From assembly GCA_036511855.1 (NCBI GenBank), contig DATCBN010000039.1, positions 1-55,531 of the forward strand: DNA of 55,531 bases. The letters are read 5' to 3'. Position numbers and translations under genes: made by a program. This DNA is from Candidatus Eremiobacteraceae bacterium. GTDB lineage: Bacteria; Vulcanimicrobiota; Vulcanimicrobiia; Eremiobacterales; Eremiobacteraceae. Below the pieces are notes generated by a model. It was given only the letters and a program-made list of their open reading frames with translations, did no database searches and was not told the origin of the DNA. Below are positions 47,099 through 55,531 of this stretch, piece after piece (the stretch's first letter is position 1; each line of letters opens with the position of its first letter).

Positions 47099-47392
47099 AT
47101 GGCTTGGCTTCCTATAGTAGCGACCGCTGCCGAGCTCATCGGCCAGCATGCCACCGACGCGGCGCAAACGGCCATGCTCGGTATGGATGAAACCCATCAG
47201 CTCATGCTTCAGGCGCGGGAAATGGCCCACCAGGAGGTCATGGACGATCGATCAGAGCGCTTCAACGAGGCGATTCAAGAACGGTCCGAGCGCATGCGAG
47301 AACGATCTCTCCTCGACGATCTGAACATGACCGATCGAAAAATCGACGACAAGCTGACGAAGGATTGGATCGGTCTCATCCGCGGACAATAG
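47099..47392 (+). CDS. Hypothetical small helical protein with strong ribosome site
   Basis: 97 residues starting at ATG 47099 with AAGGAGGA 9 nt before it, one of the best ribosome sites in the window. The N-terminus is mildly hydrophobic ([15 protein letters not shown]). The rest is a highly charged Met/Gln/Glu/Arg helix ([40 protein letters not shown]), ending in [10 protein letters not shown]. It resembles the small coiled-coil components seen in secretion or phage-like assemblies, but no family is certain. It is isolated, followed by a terminator at 47421-47443. Confidence 0.7.
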
Positions 47393-47960: not shown

Positions 47961-48037
47961 TGGTGGGCGATACACGATTCGAACGTGTGACCTCGTCCTT
48001 ATCAGGGACGCGCTCTAACCAACTGAGCTAATCGCCC
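47961..48037 (-). tRNA. tRNA-Ile (GAT)
   Basis: Acceptor GGGCGAT/ATCGCCC, D-arm GCTCAGTTGGTTAGAGC, anticodon loop CTGATAA (anticodon GAT), T-arm CGTTCGAATCG. CCA is encoded at 47961-47963. It is a standalone tRNA, not inside an rRNA spacer. Confidence 0.96.
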
Positions 48038-48236: not shown

Positions 48237-48312
48237 GGGGGATTAGCTCAGTTGGTAGAGCGCGTGCTTTGCAAGCATGAGGTCAGCGGTTCGAACCCGC
48301 TATCCTCCACCA
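48237..48312 (+). tRNA. tRNA-Ala (TGC), probable integration target
   Basis: Acceptor GGGGGAT/ATCCTCC, D-arm GCTCAGTTGGTAGAGC, anticodon loop TTTGCAA (anticodon TGC), T-arm GGTTCGAACCC, with CCA encoded at 48310-48312. It is the only tRNA on the plus strand. Its last 41 bases (48272-48312) recur at 50660-50700 with one mismatch. Confidence 0.96.
48272..48312 (+). repeat. 41-bp direct repeat, left copy (3' half of tRNA-Ala; att-like)
   Basis: Identical at 40 of 41 positions to 50660-50700, both in the same orientation. This copy lies inside the intact tRNA-Ala from the anticodon loop to CCA. The pattern is that of an attL/attR pair left by tRNA-directed integration. Confidence 0.8.
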
Positions 48313-48324
48313 AGAAAACTTTTA

Positions 48325-48344
48325 TCCCGCAAGTGTTTGCGGGA
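48325..48344 (+). terminator. Terminator after tRNA-Ala
   Basis: An 8-bp stem TCCCGCAA/TTGCGGGA with a GTGT loop lies 13 bases after the CCA of tRNA-Ala, followed by TTTCGCTTTT. Confidence 0.7.
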
Positions 48345-48689
48345 TTTCGCTTTTCTCTATCCGCATCAGCACGGCCCTGGACAGGCGCATCCATGGATCG
48401 ACCCGTGCGGCTAACACCGGCTTCCCAACGCGTTTCCATACGACGAAGGTTTCTTGACGATCGATTATAAGAACAGCGCAAAGCTTCATCAGTCGCGAAG
48501 TCTTCCCAATCGGAATTTCAATCCCATATTGTGCCACACGCTCAACCCACCGGCAAAAAGCGCTCGACGGAGGAGACGACATGCCGAGAAAGACCGACCG
48601 GACGAGAATAGTCGGCACTAAGGGTAGAGGACACGCCACTGCTCACGACGAGAGCCAGCGGGCTTCTGATCGCCCGAACCGCTAACGAC
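48345..48689. other. No convincing gene
   Basis: Between the tRNA terminator and the lipoprotein there are open frames on both strands, but none has a ribosome site together with protein-like composition. The longest runs from 48639 to 48322 on the minus strand and looks like chance. Confidence 0.5.
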
Positions 48690-49406
48690 CTAGTACGTGA
48701 AGATGTATTTCGGCACGGGAATCACCGGGCTGCCGACGGCGAGGCTGATCTGCTCGTGTTCCGTGAGCGGTATCGTGCGAGGATCGATGCTCGTCGTCCA
48801 CGGTCCGCCGCTCGTCGGTGTAATGATTTTCACCCATACAGTCCCGGTGTAACCGGCCACATTTGTCGGGTCGAGCGGCTCGCCCCAGACGGCGAAGAAA
48901 TCGCCCAGCGTAAATCCGAGATCGCGCGGTGCCTCGTAATGAATGATGCCGCTCCGATCGTGGGTGTGCATGTAGTAAAAGCACGAACCGCCGATCACCT
49001 GATTGCCACTGTGGTTATACGTCCACGGTTTGACGATGCCGACGGCCCACGGAACCATGATCTGGGTACCGGTCGGATCGAAGATGCTCAGGTGAATATG
49101 GATGTGAAACGCCGGCGGCATGTCTTTGTGGCACCCGAGGTGCGGCGCGATCTGTTGACCTTGGCCGCCGGAAGCCGTATCGCCGTCGGGAAAAGTGTTG
49201 ACACCGATCGACATTCCCGGCACGAGCCGGACGCGGGTGCCGTCGACGACGTGCGGCGCCCCACTGCCGCTTGAACCGATGCTCGCCGGGGACGACCCGT
49301 TTGCGTGGATCGGCGCAGGCGCGGTGGATTGCGTGCTGCACGCGGTGAGCGCGACAGCAATCGTCGCAACGATCGATCGAACGACTCCGAGTTTACTAAA
49401 CCGCAT
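48690..49406 (-). CDS. Hypothetical His-rich exported lipoprotein
   Basis: 238 residues from ATG 49406 with AAGGGA about 9 nt upstream. The signal peptide ends in a lipobox (VALTAC). The mature part is rich in Gly, Pro and His, with metal-like blocks FHIHIHL, CFYYMHTHDRSGIIHYEAP and FAVWGEPLDPTNVAG. A tandem HIH and HTHD pattern could bind a divalent metal, and it resembles uncharacterised bacterial exported proteins with an HTHD-SGIIH block. No catalytic fold is recognised. It lies in the 2.4-kb segment between the two tRNA-Ala repeats, and its start overlaps the next gene. Confidence 0.75.
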   Translation of the reverse strand: MRFSKLGVVRSIVATIAVALTACSTQSTAPAPIHANGSSPASIGSSGSGAPHVVDGTRVRLVPGMSIGVNTFPDGDTASGGQGQQIAPHLGCHKDMPPAFHIHIHLSIFDPTGTQIMVPWAVGIVKPWTYNHSGNQVIGGSCFYYMHTHDRSGIIHYEAPRDLGFTLGDFFAVWGEPLDPTNVAGYTGTVWVKIITPTSGGPWTTSIDPRTIPLTEHEQISLAVGSPVIPVPKYIFTY

Positions 49407-49887
49407 GATTGTCGATCCCTTCATTGGTGAATGCCCTTTCAATCGTGATCGCGATTTCATCGAGCAGATTTCGCGCGGTTTGGCGCGCGATATGCTTGCC
49501 GACAATCGCGTCGAAGGCATCGCCGATGACCGCGAGCGGCGGATCGTAGCTTCCGTCGAGCGTGATGAAGCTCGCACTTACCGTCTCTTCTGCTTCGACG
49601 CCGACCGTGCCGGTGAATTTGGGAAAGACGCCTCCGCCCTCAGGCTCCCACGAGACGGCCATAAGCTGTTTGATGGCATCTGGCTTTGCGATCGGTGAAA
49701 AGTGAACCGAGACGGCCTTAGATACCGCGACGCAGCGGTCAATGCCCAATCGTTCAAGCGGGACCTTGACGGTCAAGACGATCCTGCCCGAACCTTCAGA
49801 TTCGATGTCTCGGACGAATCGCCCAAAGTAGCCGCGCGCTTCGGAGAGCGGTACTTCCACCGACCGTCGTTCGTAGACACAGCCCAT
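49396..49887 (-). CDS. Hypothetical protein, paralog A of a divergent pair (SRPBCC-like)
   Basis: 163 residues from ATG 49887; other ATGs upstream would extend it. The motifs RRSVEVPLSEARGYFGRFVRDI, VSWEPEGGGVFPKFTGTVGVE, LDGSYDPPLAVIGDAFDAIVG and IARQTARNLLDEIAITIE are shared block for block with the plus-strand gene at 50021-50533. The layout of a beta sheet followed by a PPL and long C-terminal helix fits the SRPBCC/polyketide-cyclase-like superfamily, which binds small hydrophobic ligands. No enzyme function can be assigned. It is downstream-overlapped by the His-rich lipoprotein. Confidence 0.75.
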   Translation of the reverse strand: MGCVYERRSVEVPLSEARGYFGRFVRDIESEGSGRIVLTVKVPLERLGIDRCVAVSKAVSVHFSPIAKPDAIKQLMAVSWEPEGGGVFPKFTGTVGVEAEETVSASFITLDGSYDPPLAVIGDAFDAIVGKHIARQTARNLLDEIAITIERAFTNEGIDNHAV

Positions 49888-50020
49888 TATTGCAGAGCCT
49901 CCATCGTGAACTTCTCCTGCCATAATACTTGCACGGGCGGAAGATGATGTGAAGGCCAAAGGGGGTACGACTTCACACGGACTTCGTCAATTCCACTAGG
50001 CTACAAAGTACATTATCGCC

Positions 50021-50533
50021 ATGGTTGGCATCGTCGAACAACGTCATATAAATGTCCCGCTCCAACTGGCGGCGGGCTACCTCAGGCAATACATCCGCGA
50101 GGTCTTCACAAAGCACAACGGCCTGCTGACGCTTTCGGTGTCATCGCCGACGCGCCGCAACGGGTCGCATGTCCAGCTACAAGAAGACGTCATCGTCGAC
50201 TTCGCAAAGATGGTCCACTTAAAACTGCTCACGGGTCAGACCGCAATCGTCTGGCGACCCGTTCATGGCGGCGGGCTGATTCCGTCGTTCACCGGACAGC
50301 TTACTCTTGAAGACGCCGATGACCGCGAATCGTGCCGGCTGTCGCTTGAAGGATCGTACACGCCGCCGCTGGGGCCCGTCGGTGCGGCATTCGACGTCTT
50401 AGTCGGTCACACCATCGCAAGGGCCACAGCACAACGTCTTTTGAAAAGCATCGCACAAGACTTGGAAATCATGCATCGCGACGCACGCATGAAGCGTTCG
50501 CCGACCCATCGCGAGAGGTGCGGCTCGTCCTGA
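50021..50533 (+). CDS. Hypothetical protein, paralog B of a divergent pair (SRPBCC-like)
   Basis: 170 residues from ATG 50021: QRHINVPLQLAAGYLRQYIREVF, IVWRPVHGGGLIPSFTGQLTLED, LEGSYTPPLGPVGAAFDVLVG and IARATAQRLLKSIAQDLE. These match paralog A in order and spacing, at roughly 35-40% identity by eye. The two genes are divergent, with a 133-bp gap that must hold both promoters. This copy has a basic tail (RDARMKRSPTHRER). A plus-strand gene here is in contrast to the minus-strand bias of the rest. Confidence 0.75.
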   Translation: MVGIVEQRHINVPLQLAAGYLRQYIREVFTKHNGLLTLSVSSPTRRNGSHVQLQEDVIVDFAKMVHLKLLTGQTAIVWRPVHGGGLIPSFTGQLTLEDADDRESCRLSLEGSYTPPLGPVGAAFDVLVGHTIARATAQRLLKSIAQDLEIMHRDARMKRSPTHRERCGSS

Positions 50534-50659
50534 ACGTATCCGACCTCGATGAGGCCGCCGACAGCGAAATCTTTCGATTGCGCCATCGTCAGGTGTAGCA
50601 GTGCTTTTATCGATTTTCCGACACTCTAGAAGAGGGCCGACAATCGCGCGACCGTTTTT

Positions 50660-50700
50660 CAAGCATGAGGTCAGCGGTTCGAACCCGCTATCCTCCGCCA
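50660..50700 (+). repeat. 41-bp direct repeat, right copy (tRNA-Ala 3' remnant; att-like)
   Basis: This matches tRNA-Ala positions 48272-48312 except for one base (A to G at the discriminator position). It has no D-arm or 5' acceptor, so it is a fragment and not a tRNA. It marks the far end of a 2,388-bp segment. Confidence 0.85.
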
Positions 50701-51231
50701 ACGTGGATCGGCGACGCGGCGCGACGGCACGTACATTCCTTTAATTTTAAATAATGGAGTGCATCGCCAGCATCGAGGGCCGAGAGCCGCCTCGATTGGA
50801 ATACCACGCGGAACGGCCGAGTATCGCTGCACAGACCGTTCGTAATTGCGTCGAGCGCTAGGGCCCTACTTCTGTTGAATCGGAGTTGATAGGACCCGGT
50901 GCGGTCACGCTTGTATCGCGGGCTTCGATGGCAGTCCGGAGTACGCCGTTCGAAGAACAATCGTGACAGACCGTCCAAGAATTCACTCTTACCACTTGAT
51001 TCCTATCGTTGTCACATAAGTCGCATTTCATTGGGCCAAACCATATTCATTCGGCGCCTTGCCGAAAATAAACCTATTCGCTGCTCACTTTGGCTAGCTA
51101 GCCGGCCCGCTCCGTGAAGCGGCACGCCTCGAAACGCCAAATTGTTTGCAACCATTAGCCAGTGCAACTGAGCTGATCGATTTACCGCAGCGACGACTAG
51201 CCGCCGTTAAAGACCAAATAGTCCGTCCGCA
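50701..51231. other. Gene-poor stretch
   Basis: No supported gene. Open frames on both strands are short and lack ribosome sites. The base composition is lower in G+C than in the housekeeping half of the window. Confidence 0.55.
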
Positions 51232-51387
51232 TTACACAGATCGCCGACCTGTTACCAGGTTGTAGATCACACCGATGACGACGATGACGATCAAGATATT
51301 GATGAGCGAGCCGCCGATGTGGCCTATGAGTCCGACTAACCATAGCACGAATAAGATCACGATGACGGTCCATAAGACGTTTGCCAT
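51232..51387 (-). CDS. Lmo0937-family small membrane protein
   Basis: 51 residues from ATG 51387, with a GGGAGGGG ribosome site 7 nt upstream. It has two hydrophobic helices (VLWTVIVILFVLWLVGLIG and NILIVIVVIGVIYNLVTG) and a basic end (RRSV), which is the layout of Lmo0937-type stress-associated membrane proteins. Function is unknown. It stands alone with no operon partner. Confidence 0.8.
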   Translation of the reverse strand: MANVLWTVIVILFVLWLVGLIGHIGGSLINILIVIVVIGVIYNLVTGRRSV

Positions 51388-51847
51388 GCTGTACCCCTCC
51401 CGCTCAAGAGCGGAGATCACGAATGAGAGTAAGTGCGAACTAGTGGTCGAATGAGAAATCTCGTCTGACAGGCGTCGCCGATCTGCGCATTCGCTCTGTT
51501 AAATCGTCGAGCGAGACGGATACGTGATAGTGGCGATGTCGCTTATCGAGGGCGGCACTCGACTTCACCGGCACCGCGGGAACTACTGCCGGATCAGAAG
51601 CTGGGAGAATTGAATTAAGCATCCTTAGTGGTTCGCCAGTCGCTAGTGGCCACCCGCGAATTGTAAATATTATTAGTCACGTTCGTGTTTCGAAGCTTTC
51701 AAAAGACTGGAGCCCTTTTCGCGTCGCCTTACTGTATCGATGCCCATGTATTCCGCTGGAACATTGCTCGTCACCGAAAGTCGCGTTGGCAGACCACTGA
51801 ATGGGTATAAGGACTTCGTTGCGGCCGGTTTCCGTCCGCTCTCTCCT
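51388..51847. other. Intergenic, weak small ORF only
   Basis: A 60-codon frame at 51440-51622 on the minus strand (MLNSILPASDPAVV...) has AAGG directly adjoining its ATG and no conserved motif. It is not accepted as a gene. Nothing else is supported. Confidence 0.3.
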
Positions 51848-52450
51848 ATGACCCGTCAAAGGCGAACGACTTTGAAAATTCAGAACTTACGCGATCTTTG
51901 GATCGGCGAATTGAAAGGTCTCTACCACGCCGAGACCCAGATCCTGAAGGCTCTCCCGAAAATGGCAAAGGCAGCGGAAGACAAAGAACTCCGCGGTGCT
52001 TTCAAGGAGCATCTGGAGCAGACGCGGGGGCACGTCAAACGGCTCGCTCAGATATTCAAGCTCATCGGAGTGCCGGCCAAGGGCAAGCAGTGCAAAGGTA
52101 TGGAGGGCATTATCGCCGAGGGTAAGGCGATGCTTGAAATGGATCTGCCCGAACCCGTGGGAGACGCTGCCCTGATCGCGGCCGCACAGCGCGTCGAACA
52201 CTACGAGATTGCGGCGTATGGCACCGTTCGCACATATGCCGAAGTCTTGGGCGAAGCAGACGCTGCCAAGTTGCTTGAAGCGACGCTTAAGGAAGAGAAA
52301 GCGACCGATGAGACTCTTACCGGTATTGCGGAACAGGTGAATGCGGACGCGGTGGAACGCAACGGTAAGGCCCAAATCGCGGCAACGCCAGGGCAGAATA
52401 GCAACGGCAAAGTTAAGAAGAAGCGTCAACCGGCCCGCGCCGCTCGTTGA
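51848..52450 (+). CDS. DUF892 ferritin-like protein (YciE/YciF type)
   Basis: 200 residues in which a four-helix bundle is evident: DLWIGELKGLYHAETQILKALPKMAKAA, LRGAFKEHLEQTRGHVKRLAQIF, AAAQRVEHYEIAAYGTVRTYAEVLG and LLEATLKEEKATDETLTGIAE. Metal-ligand Glu and His residues occur in the E-x6-Y-x2-E-x2, E-H-x2-Q and RVEHYEIAAYG contexts typical of YciF-like diiron proteins. A basic tail (KVKKKRQPARAAR) follows. ATG 51848 is used, but TTG 51872 with AAAGG 9 nt upstream gives the usual KIQNLRDLW start. These proteins accumulate in stress and stationary phase. Confidence 0.88.
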   Translation: MTRQRRTTLKIQNLRDLWIGELKGLYHAETQILKALPKMAKAAEDKELRGAFKEHLEQTRGHVKRLAQIFKLIGVPAKGKQCKGMEGIIAEGKAMLEMDLPEPVGDAALIAAAQRVEHYEIAAYGTVRTYAEVLGEADAAKLLEATLKEEKATDETLTGIAEQVNADAVERNGKAQIAATPGQNSNGKVKKKRQPARAAR

Positions 52451-52549
52451 ACGCGGGCGAAGGAGCGATGCCGAGCATGCGGCCCGCTCCTTTTCTATGT
52501 GAGGCGCCTCAGAAGGTCGTAAAACTAGCGTTGCCAGTACAATCCCGCT

Positions 52550-54082
52550 GTGATGCGTTCCAATTTTCCGGCTGCCCGATCAGAACTAATCGAGGGCCAG
52601 GACGGAAATCTCTCGTTGGAACTGATTGCGCCACACCAAGCTGGGGGTCCAACGAGTCAGATGCCTCTGCGGACTGTCATTGAAGTCGGGTCAAGGAGCG
52701 TGAGCAAAGACCGCGTCTTCGAAGCAATCGTGATCGGCGGGGGCTCTGGCGGTCTTGCGGCTGCGACGGCTCTGAAACAGGGCGGAATGCGCCGAGTCGC
52801 AGTTGTCGAGCGTGAACGCGTGGGAGGGGAGTGCGCCTTTTGGGCATGCGTCCCCTCGAAAGTGTTGCTAAGGGCAGAGCAGCCCGTAACCGATGGGAAA
52901 CGCGTCCCTGGTTCAAAACCACTTTCCGACGAGCGGCCAGATTTCGCTCAGGCGGCGGCATGGCGAACGACGATGGTCGATCAATACAGCGACGCAATTC
53001 ATGCGTCCGAATTGGCGAAAGCACACGTCGACCTGCTGCGCGGTACGGCCCGAATCGAAAGCGCTGGCATCGTCTCAGTCGACGGCGAGCGATATCGCGC
53101 CAAGCATATTGTAATAGCGACGGGCTCCACCGATGCGATTCCCGACATCCAGGGACTAAACGACTGCCCATATTGGCTATCGCGCGACGCGACCGCAGCA
53201 GACGCCGTGCCCGAACGCCTTGTTGTCTTGGGCGGCGGGCCCGTTGGTGTCGAACTTGGGCAAATGTTTGCGCGGTTCGGCGCCGAGGTCGTACTGATTG
53301 AATCATCGTCTCATATTATTCATAACGAGAGCGCCGGTATTGCGGAGATCCTAACACAACTACTGAAAAATGATGGCGTTACGATCTCGACCGGAGCGAA
53401 GGCGGTGAGCGTTGCCTGTGATGAGAGCTCCGTGAGCGTGCACCTTGATAACGGTAAGACGATTTCGGCTTCGAAGCTTCTCGTGGCGACCGGCCGCAAA
53501 GCGCGAACGGTCGATTTGGGCTTGGAACTCGTCGGGATAACGGTTGACGATGGGGGCAATATTCCAATCGATGATTCGTGCCGAGCAGCGGCCGATGTGT
53601 ACGCCGTTGGCGACGTCACCGGGAAAGCGATGTTCACGCATACGGCAAAATATCAGAGCCGAATAGCAGTAGCCGCGATACTAGGCCATCCTGAAAAATC
53701 GTCCTACGACGCTGTGCCTCGGTGCATATTTACTGATCCGGAAGTCGCGTCGGTGGGAAAGACGCAGGAGCAGGCGCGCGAAGCCGGGATCGATGCGATT
53801 TATGCGCGTGTCAACTTTGACGAAATCACAAGGCCGGCGCTCTATTTTGAGGATATCGCGAAAGGCGCCGTTGAACTCATCGCCGATAAGACGACGAGGC
53901 GATTGATCGGCGGATGGATAGTCGGACCGATGGCAAGTGAGATGACCGGGTTCATAAGTCTGGCTATTCAGAGCGGAGCTGAATTCGATACGCTTCTAAG
54001 CATAATTCAGCCGTATCCGACATTTTCTGAGGCGTTTTTCGTAGCAGTAGACAGGTTGGCAACGCAGGTCAAATACGGCTAG
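52550..54082 (+). CDS. FAD-dependent pyridine nucleotide-disulfide oxidoreductase (mercuric reductase/Lpd-like)
   Basis: 510 residues with the class I flavoprotein disulfide reductase layout: FAD loop AIVIGGGSGGLAAATALKQGG, redox cysteines in GGECAFWACVPSK (C-x4-C), NAD loop VVLGGGPVGVELGQMFARFG, GDVTGKAMFTHTA and the C-terminal dimer domain. The final motif is IQPYPTFSEAFF, where lipoamide dehydrogenases have HAHPTLSE; the catalytic His is absent, as in mercuric reductases and some quinone reductases. No mer genes or vicinal C-terminal cysteines are visible. The first 55 residues before the FAD loop are extra. GTG 52550 is used, with ATG 52553 next. Confidence 0.9.
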   Translation: MMRSNFPAARSELIEGQDGNLSLELIAPHQAGGPTSQMPLRTVIEVGSRSVSKDRVFEAIVIGGGSGGLAAATALKQGGMRRVAVVERERVGGECAFWACVPSKVLLRAEQPVTDGKRVPGSKPLSDERPDFAQAAAWRTTMVDQYSDAIHASELAKAHVDLLRGTARIESAGIVSVDGERYRAKHIVIATGSTDAIPDIQGLNDCPYWLSRDATAADAVPERLVVLGGGPVGVELGQMFARFGAEVVLIESSSHIIHNESAGIAEILTQLLKNDGVTISTGAKAVSVACDESSVSVHLDNGKTISASKLLVATGRKARTVDLGLELVGITVDDGGNIPIDDSCRAAADVYAVGDVTGKAMFTHTAKYQSRIAVAAILGHPEKSSYDAVPRCIFTDPEVASVGKTQEQAREAGIDAIYARVNFDEITRPALYFEDIAKGAVELIADKTTRRLIGGWIVGPMASEMTGFISLAIQSGAEFDTLLSIIQPYPTFSEAFFVAVDRLATQVKYG

Positions 54083-54157
54083 ACTTTGTTCTACCTTCGA
54101 CGTGAGCCCGGCGCTGCCGCTGTCTGGATGCGCAACAAAGGTCGCGCAGACGGGCTT
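54083..54157. other. Short gap after the flavoprotein
   Basis: Nothing supported; a minus-strand frame crosses it but is not protein-like. Confidence 0.3.
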
Positions 54158-54310
54158 CTAGCGCGGCAACCTCAGCTCGGGCCGACGTGCTTCGACCGGC
54201 GCCATGTATTCGGGCGATAAGGCCATCCAATGTGTGCAATGTTCGCATACCAGAGGAGTGATTACGTCGGCGGTGGCCGACATATCTTGATTGCAGACAA
54301 GGCAAACCAT
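54158..54310 (-). CDS. Small zinc-ribbon-like protein (50 aa)
   Basis: ATG 54310 reads MVCLVCNQDMSATADVITPL and then VCEHCTHWMALSPEYM. Two Cys-x2-Cys pairs separated by 17 residues form a plausible zinc ribbon, and no membrane span is present. Its ATG shares one base with the TGA of the ORF just upstream (TGATG), so the two are probably coupled. No strong ribosome site is seen, as expected when coupled. Function unknown. Confidence 0.45.
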   Translation of the reverse strand: MVCLVCNQDMSATADVITPLVCEHCTHWMALSPEYMAPVEARRPELRLPR

Positions 54311-54513
54311 CAATCGAGACCGAGAAGTGCTATGTCGGCGTCGAAACAGTTCCGCCACGATAGGCTAGGGTCGAGCACATCGAAGACTGCTTCGGTCATC
54401 ATATTCGCGGCGAGCCGCACGTCCATCGGCTGAAGTGCGTCGTCTATTCGATCTAATAGGACGGCTGCAATGGCGTTTCGTGCGTCGCGGAAGGTTCGAA
54501 GTGAAACTGTCAT
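54310..54513 (-). CDS. Hypothetical small helical protein (67 aa)
   Basis: ATG 54513 gives MTVSLRTFRDARNAIAAVLL, then helix-rich sequence (DRIDDALQPMDVRLAANMMTEAVFDVLDP) ending in DADIALLGLD. The composition is amphipathic and protein-like, and coupling to the next ORF supports translation. The only purine run upstream is AAAGAGAG at about 13 nt, which is weak. No family is recognised. Confidence 0.45.
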   Translation of the reverse strand: MTVSLRTFRDARNAIAAVLLDRIDDALQPMDVRLAANMMTEAVFDVLDPSLSWRNCFDADIALLGLD

Positions 54514-55085
54514 AGGAGGGTCTCTCTTTAGATTCGTTGAGGGACCCTTCTACTTCGACACAGGCACGCGGGAACCGCTTGTGGATCGCAAAGTAGTCAG
54601 AGGTCTGATGCTTGGTGCGAACGTCGTCACGCTCTCTCTTGTGGGCCACGATGGTTGGACAGTTGGCAGGTAGTCTTGACCTCTTGCCTGCTGCGAGTTA
54701 ATTGCCGGCGGCAACCCCTGCGTGCTAGCGATTTCGTCGAGAATCGTTCCATCGCCATTATCAAATTCGCCAATAGGGTCCCGTGATCGACATTCCCCCG
54801 GATTGCGTAGCTTGGGCTTTGTTGCCGCGAGCAACTGCCGGATCTGCCGATCAACTGCGATTGCGGGCCAACCTAACGCTCGATGAATACCGACCGCGAA
54901 AATGTCAATGCATTGAAGGCTGCAAATTCCAAACCCAAAGTTCAGACCATTCAGAAGGCGACGTCAAAGCCAAGTAAGGGCCCAGAATCTCGACGCATTC
55001 GCGAACAACTGTGCTAAGATACTAGGCCGTTACGCGCGCTGATCCGACCAAGCTTGACGGCAGCTCTCGGCCGTCGATGCCGCCG
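54514..55085. other. Gene-poor stretch before the propeller gene
   Basis: Several frames of 60-95 codons exist on both strands but none has a ribosome site plus protein-like composition. A 64-codon plus-strand frame at 54783-54977 is the least poor. No tRNA, repeat or terminator is clear. Confidence 0.5.
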
Positions 55086-55531
55086 TCAGAACGCTAGAGT
55101 GTTGGTCGTGGTAACGCCTTGTATGATCGCCGAAACTTGCTCCTTCACAAATAGGCTCTGGCCGGGGAGTGGATACTTGGCTCCGAAAACGACGTTGAAC
55201 AGGCCTGAGACATAGAGAGTATTCTCGTGGCAATCGATCACAAGTTCAATGGGAAGATTCCCCTGAGGCAGCGGCACTTCAAGCGATGCAGTCTTCGAGC
55301 CCGGCGAGAAGACGTCGATGCGATGCAATCTGCTATTTGCAGTTCCAGTTTCATCGACAACAACGTTGCCGCTAGAATCTACGGCGACACCCTGTGGATC
55401 GGACAGCGTCATGCCAATTACGTGGCCCTGACTGGAGCCCGGAGCAAACTTCTCGATGCTACCCGAGCCGCTCGGACAGGTGCGGTAGCCGACGTACAGG
55501 TTCCCATGACGGTCAAAGGCCATCCCGTCGG
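55086..55531 (-). CDS. NHL/SMP-30-like beta-propeller protein, C-terminal part cut by window edge
   Basis: Read on the minus strand, the coding frame continues off the right edge, so the start lies outside the window. The visible 148 residues are propeller blades: DGMAFDRHGNLYVGYRT, SIEKFAPGSSQGHVIGMTLSDPQGVAVDSSGNVVVDE and IDVFSPGSKTASLEV. Each has the D-x-x-G-N-x-x-V turn of NHL or SMP-30 repeats. The last part (GQSLFVKEQVSAIIQGVTT) loses the repeat. Such proteins in this type of genome are often exported and unassigned; the ligand is unknown. Confidence 0.75.
   Translation of the reverse strand, partial: DGMAFDRHGNLYVGYRTCPSGSGSIEKFAPGSSQGHVIGMTLSDPQGVAVDSSGNVVVDETGTANSRLHRIDVFSPGSKTASLEVPLPQGNLPIELVIDCHENTLYVSGLFNVVFGAKYPLPGQSLFVKEQVSAIIQGVTTTNTLAF

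Follow-up and report, generated by a model that had tools for sequence, protein, structure and literature searches.

The window analysed here, a 55,531-bp stretch of DNA that forms one entire contig (C39) of the metagenome-assembled genome G000 (3.07 Mb, 112 contigs, 96% complete) of a soil bacterium, carries a tRNA-Ala(TGC) gene followed by a displaced copy of its own 3' half. The 2.4-kb segment between the two copies is likely what remains of a site-specific integration at tRNA-Ala(TGC); on this reading, the integrase module was later lost and the segment is the tRNA-proximal piece of a composite region. The features of the segment are listed in Table 1.

In the ungapped comparison, 50660-50700 was identical to 48272-48312 at 40 of 41 positions at a constant offset of 2388 bp, confirming the first-pass annotation, which had described a same-strand copy of the last 41 bases of the tRNA gene with one mismatch. 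A longer match (43/45) begins at 50656, within the anticodon loop, where the similarity stops, and the second copy therefore has no 5' half, as had also been reported. The copies differ at position 35 of the tRNA (G to T) and again at position 73 (A to G). Similarity was at background level 5' of the fragment and past the CCA, and nothing beyond the tRNA was duplicated with it. The figure of 2388 bp, earlier given as the length of the interior, measures the repeats from start to start; some 2343 bp (48313-50655) separate the tRNA end from the fragment. The next-best match to the 41-mer in the window was 29/41, at tRNA-Ile, and among sequences outside the 15 tRNA genes of the window the fragment was the only tRNA piece. 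A search of the whole assembly (3.07 Mb, 112 contigs) returned the fragment with an E value of 5.7e-15 and no other TGC-type fragment, which excludes chance and also disposes of the alternative that the copy is a dispersed repeat. The flanks of the fragment were unique in the assembly, and in the comparison of the DNA after it with the flanks of relatives, only the tRNA part was matched. The fragment sits between predicted genes ending at 50533 and 51232, and no conserved domain of the neighbouring proteins overlaps it.

Table 1. Features of the tRNA-Ala(TGC) segment and its surroundings (window coordinates)
Feature	Position	Strand	Evidence or remark
tRNA-Ile(GAT), conserved backbone neighbour, outside the island	47961-48037	-	ARAGORN, Rfam; order kept in 11 relatives
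tRNA-Ala(TGC), intact target gene, CCA encoded; 3' half is one repeat copy	48237-48312	+	ARAGORN and Rfam agree (48237-48312/48309)
Terminator-like hairpin directly 3' of tRNA-Ala(TGC), core TCCCGCAAGTGTTTGCGGGA	48313-48356	+	Inverted repeat I1
His-containing putative lipoprotein, cargo	48690-49406	-	Family in 107/117 class genomes
Small protein, possibly SRPBCC-like, cargo	49396-49887	-	Homologues in 102/117 class genomes
Paralogue of the 49396-49887 gene, divergently arranged	50021-50533	+	36% identity; weak PF10604
Weak match (19/32) to the 32-bp motif, tentative	50615-50646	+	Motif lies 5' of the G009 and C95 fragments
tRNA-Ala(TGC) 3'-half fragment without 5' half, presumed displaced attachment-site copy	50656-50700	+	Sequence match
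More variable low-GC DNA, no backbone gene	50701-55531	.	Domain searches, comparison with relatives

A search of 13 other genomes of the family supplied their tRNA-Ala regions for comparison. The gene order is conserved, with prmC, prfA, L31 and a 97-aa gene followed by tRNA-Ile (minus strand), tRNA-Ala(TGC) (plus strand), a set of backbone genes and tRNA-Ala(GGC) (plus strand). The backbone set consists of gene 'a', an aldehyde dehydrogenase that we take, from its sequence, to be SSADH-like, an amino-acid permease and a DUF4352-type protein. Homologues of the 97-aa protein (47099-47392 in the window) were found mainly in MAGs labelled Candidatus Eremiobacterota or Eremiobacter, which places G000 in that lineage. 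tRNA-Ile(GAT), which had been read as a sign of accessory DNA, belongs instead to the family-conserved backbone, where it lies beside tRNA-Ala. The uninterrupted tRNA-Ala locus that the first-pass annotation had proposed to look for was present in 3 of the 13 relatives, in which the first backbone gene lies 41 bp (G006), 162 bp (G010) and 125 bp (G013) past tRNA-Ala(TGC). Occupied sites held 2.2 kb (G004), 2.4 kb (G012), 3.7 kb (G001) and 7.1 kb (G007), with differing contents. Fixed presence of the segment in all relatives had been named as evidence against integration; none of the 13 carries it. In contrast to G000 and the rest of the family, the congeners G001 and G002 have tRNA-Ala(TGC) genes (L041 10459-10531 and L042 8131-8203) that encode no CCA and carry another T-stem (CAGGAG...CTCC); the 3' half of these genes was possibly swapped in by an integrating element.

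Downstream of tRNA-Ala(TGC), the remaining 7.2 kb of the contig contain no backbone gene, and the backbone does not resume within the 4.8 kb between the fragment and the point where the contig ends. Neither backbone gene 'a' of the congener G001 nor an intact tRNA-Ala(GGC) was found in the G000 assembly. The GC content was 0.58 in the interval and 0.56 past the fragment, compared with 0.62 in the first 46.9 kb; it is lower all the way from the tRNA gene to where the contig stops. The DNA at 50701-55531 encodes DUF5670 and DUF892 proteins, a pyridine nucleotide-disulphide oxidoreductase and an NHL-repeat gene; the genes past tRNA-Ala(TGC) are absent at the loci of the relatives except for one weak NHL-repeat match, and similarity to plasmids was confined to short tRNA-like and DUF892-gene matches. 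Because no backbone gene occurs up to the contig end and the low GC continues, the accessory region is larger than had been reported, and the segment would be a piece of a larger composite island rather than a self-contained 2.4-kb element. The 2.4-kb boundaries of the first-pass annotation are accordingly less secure than its repeat pair, and the fragment is uncertain as the true outer end of the island.

The cargo of the segment consists of ordinary lineage genes from class-wide chromosomal families. No defence (PADLOC), phage-structural (PHROGs) or mobility annotation was found in it, and the lipoprotein had no Pfam, NCBIfam or PHROG match. The gene at 49396-49887 overlaps the start of the lipoprotein gene in an operon-like manner. 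The two small genes are paralogous, as proposed, whereas their SRPBCC label corresponds to one sub-threshold Pfam hit (E 0.067) and stays tentative. The cargo families were also matched elsewhere in G000, including another divergent pair on contig C102. There, the paralogous arrangement seen at 49396-50533 recurs at L138 5238-6319, and similar divergent small-protein pairs occur in several other genomes of the class.

In this lineage, tRNA-Ala is a genuine hotspot of integration, a conclusion that follows from the empty sites described above, from an integrase and an excisionase at tRNA-Ala(TGC) in G008 and from a set of tRNA-Ala 3' fragments, and that bears out the proposal that the tRNA 3' half is used as an integrase target. 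In G008, a 383-aa tyrosine integrase (L050:642-1793) has its end 40 bp away from the tRNA-Ala(TGC) 3' terminus, and its gene adjoins an excisionase gene (L050:302-631). A 48-bp 3' fragment bearing the T-arm variant of G008 itself lies on another contig (L051:6814-6861), where genes for an LPD7-domain protein and an S26 peptidase are nearby and the SSADH backbone gene and tRNA-Ala(GGC) follow downstream of it. Across the class, a tRNA gene lies near homologues of this integrase at roughly two thirds of the inspected loci. In G009 (L052:2888-4311), tRNA-Ala(TGC) and a terminator are followed by about 1.3 kb of DNA and a 46-bp 3' fragment, again without an integrase. G002 has two GGC-type fragments and G000 itself has one (C95:985-1026). 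Altogether, six tRNA-Ala 3' fragments were found in four genomes; all start at tRNA positions 29-36, and all run to the CCA or stop at most 2 nt short of it. No viral contig carried the tRNA-Ala attP core, and the integrase relatives in viral contigs were distant (30-35%). The G002 fragments (L140 2969-3009 and L043 2346-2386) lie on two contigs, one of them near a contig end. At C95 985-1062 (L057), a terminator-like hairpin comes after the GGC-type fragment, and two CCACTT repeats spaced 12 bp apart precede the fragment; this is probably the outer end of a separate tRNA-Ala(GGC) element in G000.

The surroundings of these fragments were also compared. The 5' flanks are alike in two fragment pairs, over 32 bp between G009 and C95 and over 76 bp between C95 and G002:C40, with scores reached by 0 of 500 shuffles. 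In G001, G008, G009 and C95, the tRNA or the fragment has a pair of CCAC-type repeats beside it, spaced by 12-13 bp, which may be integrase arm sites. In the window, no convincing arm-type repeats were found near either copy, and the motif match in Table 1 lies at about the expected distance (positional P about 0.001, found post hoc). The hairpin 3' of tRNA-Ala(TGC) has a predicted folding energy of -17.3 kcal/mol (z -5.3); related hairpins lie 3' of tRNA-Ala in G001, G004 and G009 and 3' of the GGC fragment on C95. No terminator follows the fragment in the window; it occurs only with the intact tRNA. This placement was considered as counter-evidence to integration, and that reading was dropped because in G001, G008 and G009 the terminator is on the side bearing the arm-like repeats. 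Elements at tRNA-Ala seem to bring their own terminator, and the placement in the window fits integration only if the element brought it.

No integrase, integrase remnant or excisionase was found in the window; the first-pass annotation had noted the lack of an integrase in the interior of the segment. Two PF00589 proteins are present in the G000 assembly, on C29 and C49 only. The C29 protein is taken as Xer, since most relatives have one high-scoring protein and its score is comparable to theirs. The C49 integrase (L010/L143) abuts tRNA-Pro(GGG) beside an excisionase, and the two likely belong to an integrated element of G000; as an internal positive control, the displaced tRNA-Pro 3' fragment of this element was sought in the assembly and was not found. 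Integrase-less elements mobilised in trans are known in general. A small satellite of this sort was one option of the first-pass annotation, which had advised a search for a trans-acting integrase gene elsewhere in the genome; the 2.4-kb interval would then be a complete element with both attachment sites retained, moved by an integrase encoded elsewhere. The near-identity of the two repeat copies would suit this explanation. However, the search yielded no candidate for a tRNA-Ala-directed integrase in the 96% complete assembly, the only non-Xer integrase being the one at tRNA-Pro(GGG) with its own excisionase; moreover, the segment has neither mobility nor phage genes, its cargo is of class-wide chromosomal families, arm-type repeats are absent beside both copies, the backbone does not resume past the fragment, and no relative carries the unit. 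A satellite is therefore very unlikely.

Two other origins of the arrangement were weighed, both of them unlikely. Tandem tRNA-Ala genes (TGC, then GGC) are normal in this family and the window has no integrase, so that the fragment might have been left by a plain duplication of tRNA-Ala followed by deletion of the 5' half of the extra copy, without any integrase. Random truncation, however, would not give six fragments that all start at positions 29-36 and end within 2 nt of the CCA, no DNA past the tRNA was duplicated with the fragment, and G008 carries an integrase and excisionase at tRNA-Ala(TGC). An artefact of assembly, with a misjoin made at the 41-bp repeat or at a strain variant of the metagenome, is suggested by the fragmented assembly of 112 contigs, by the contigs of several relatives that end near the tandem tRNA-Ala genes and by the failure to find tRNA-Ala(GGC) and backbone gene 'a' in G000; against it, the two mismatches tell the copies apart, the flanks of the fragment are unique, and G009 and G002, which were assembled independently, show similar arrangements. 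Finally, the tRNA-Ala TGC/GGC pair could act as a paired hotspot at which integrase-less cargo persists or moves between tRNA-Ala genes and leftover 3' fragments, through a rare integrase acting in trans or recombination at the 41-bp repeat, an idea that we regard as decidedly improbable.

With no integrase left in the segment and tRNA-Ala established as an integrase target, the decayed-island and deletion-scar options of the first-pass annotation are favoured. In this relic of integration, a tyrosine integrase would have recombined the attP of an element with tRNA-Ala(TGC) at its anticodon stem-loop. The 3' half carried by the element, together with a terminator, would have rebuilt the tRNA, and the original 3' half of the host would have been pushed downstream, to persist at 50656-50700. 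The integrase/excisionase module, which abuts this tRNA in G008, would later have been lost by deletion or replacement, leaving lineage-typical cargo behind. The 2.4-kb stretch would then be the tRNA-proximal part of a composite region undergoing turnover, at least 7.2 kb long here, rather than an autonomous element, and this region would lie where relatives have the interval from tRNA-Ala(TGC) to tRNA-Ala(GGC).

In the Islander collection, the anticodon-centred (A) class accounts for 2083 of 3919 islands (PMC4383910). The window resembles its anticodon-centred islands with a 3' fragment in having an intact tRNA gene plus an end fragment that starts at the anticodon, lies 3' of the gene in the same orientation and extends to the tRNA end; its repeat-to-repeat length of about 2.39 kb is near the lower limit of the 2-200 kb range, and the fragment lies outside conserved domains, as Islander requires (PMC4383910). 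It differs from these islands (PMC4383910) in that no backbone gene follows the fragment before the contig ends and in that no tyrosine integrase lies in the interval, PF00589 occurring only on C29 and C49; because Islander requires the integrase, the segment is by definition not a member. The G008 element shares with the window the same tRNA, a core from the anticodon stem-loop to the CCA and a terminator directly 3' of the tRNA, whereas it keeps its integrase, excisionase, paired arm-like repeats and LPD7-domain protein, carries other cargo and is split over two contigs; its fragment lies upstream of the backbone and tRNA-Ala(GGC). The G009 locus is also like the window in its tRNA, similar terminator, non-mobile DNA, fragment and lack of an integrase; it differs in its TonB-C protein cargo, in a TTTGAC(A/C)AC repeat pair beside the tRNA and in a well-preserved 32-bp motif 5' of the fragment.

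The segment works like a tRNA-targeted island and probably descends from one; the arrangement is an ordinary, decayed case of a known kind and mechanistically nothing new. Such tRNA-fragment footprints outlive the integrase, and this segment would escape Islander and other island finders that depend on an integrase. In a mostly uncultured phylum, the comparison documents tRNA-Ala as an integration hotspot with an identifiable type of integrase and excisionase.
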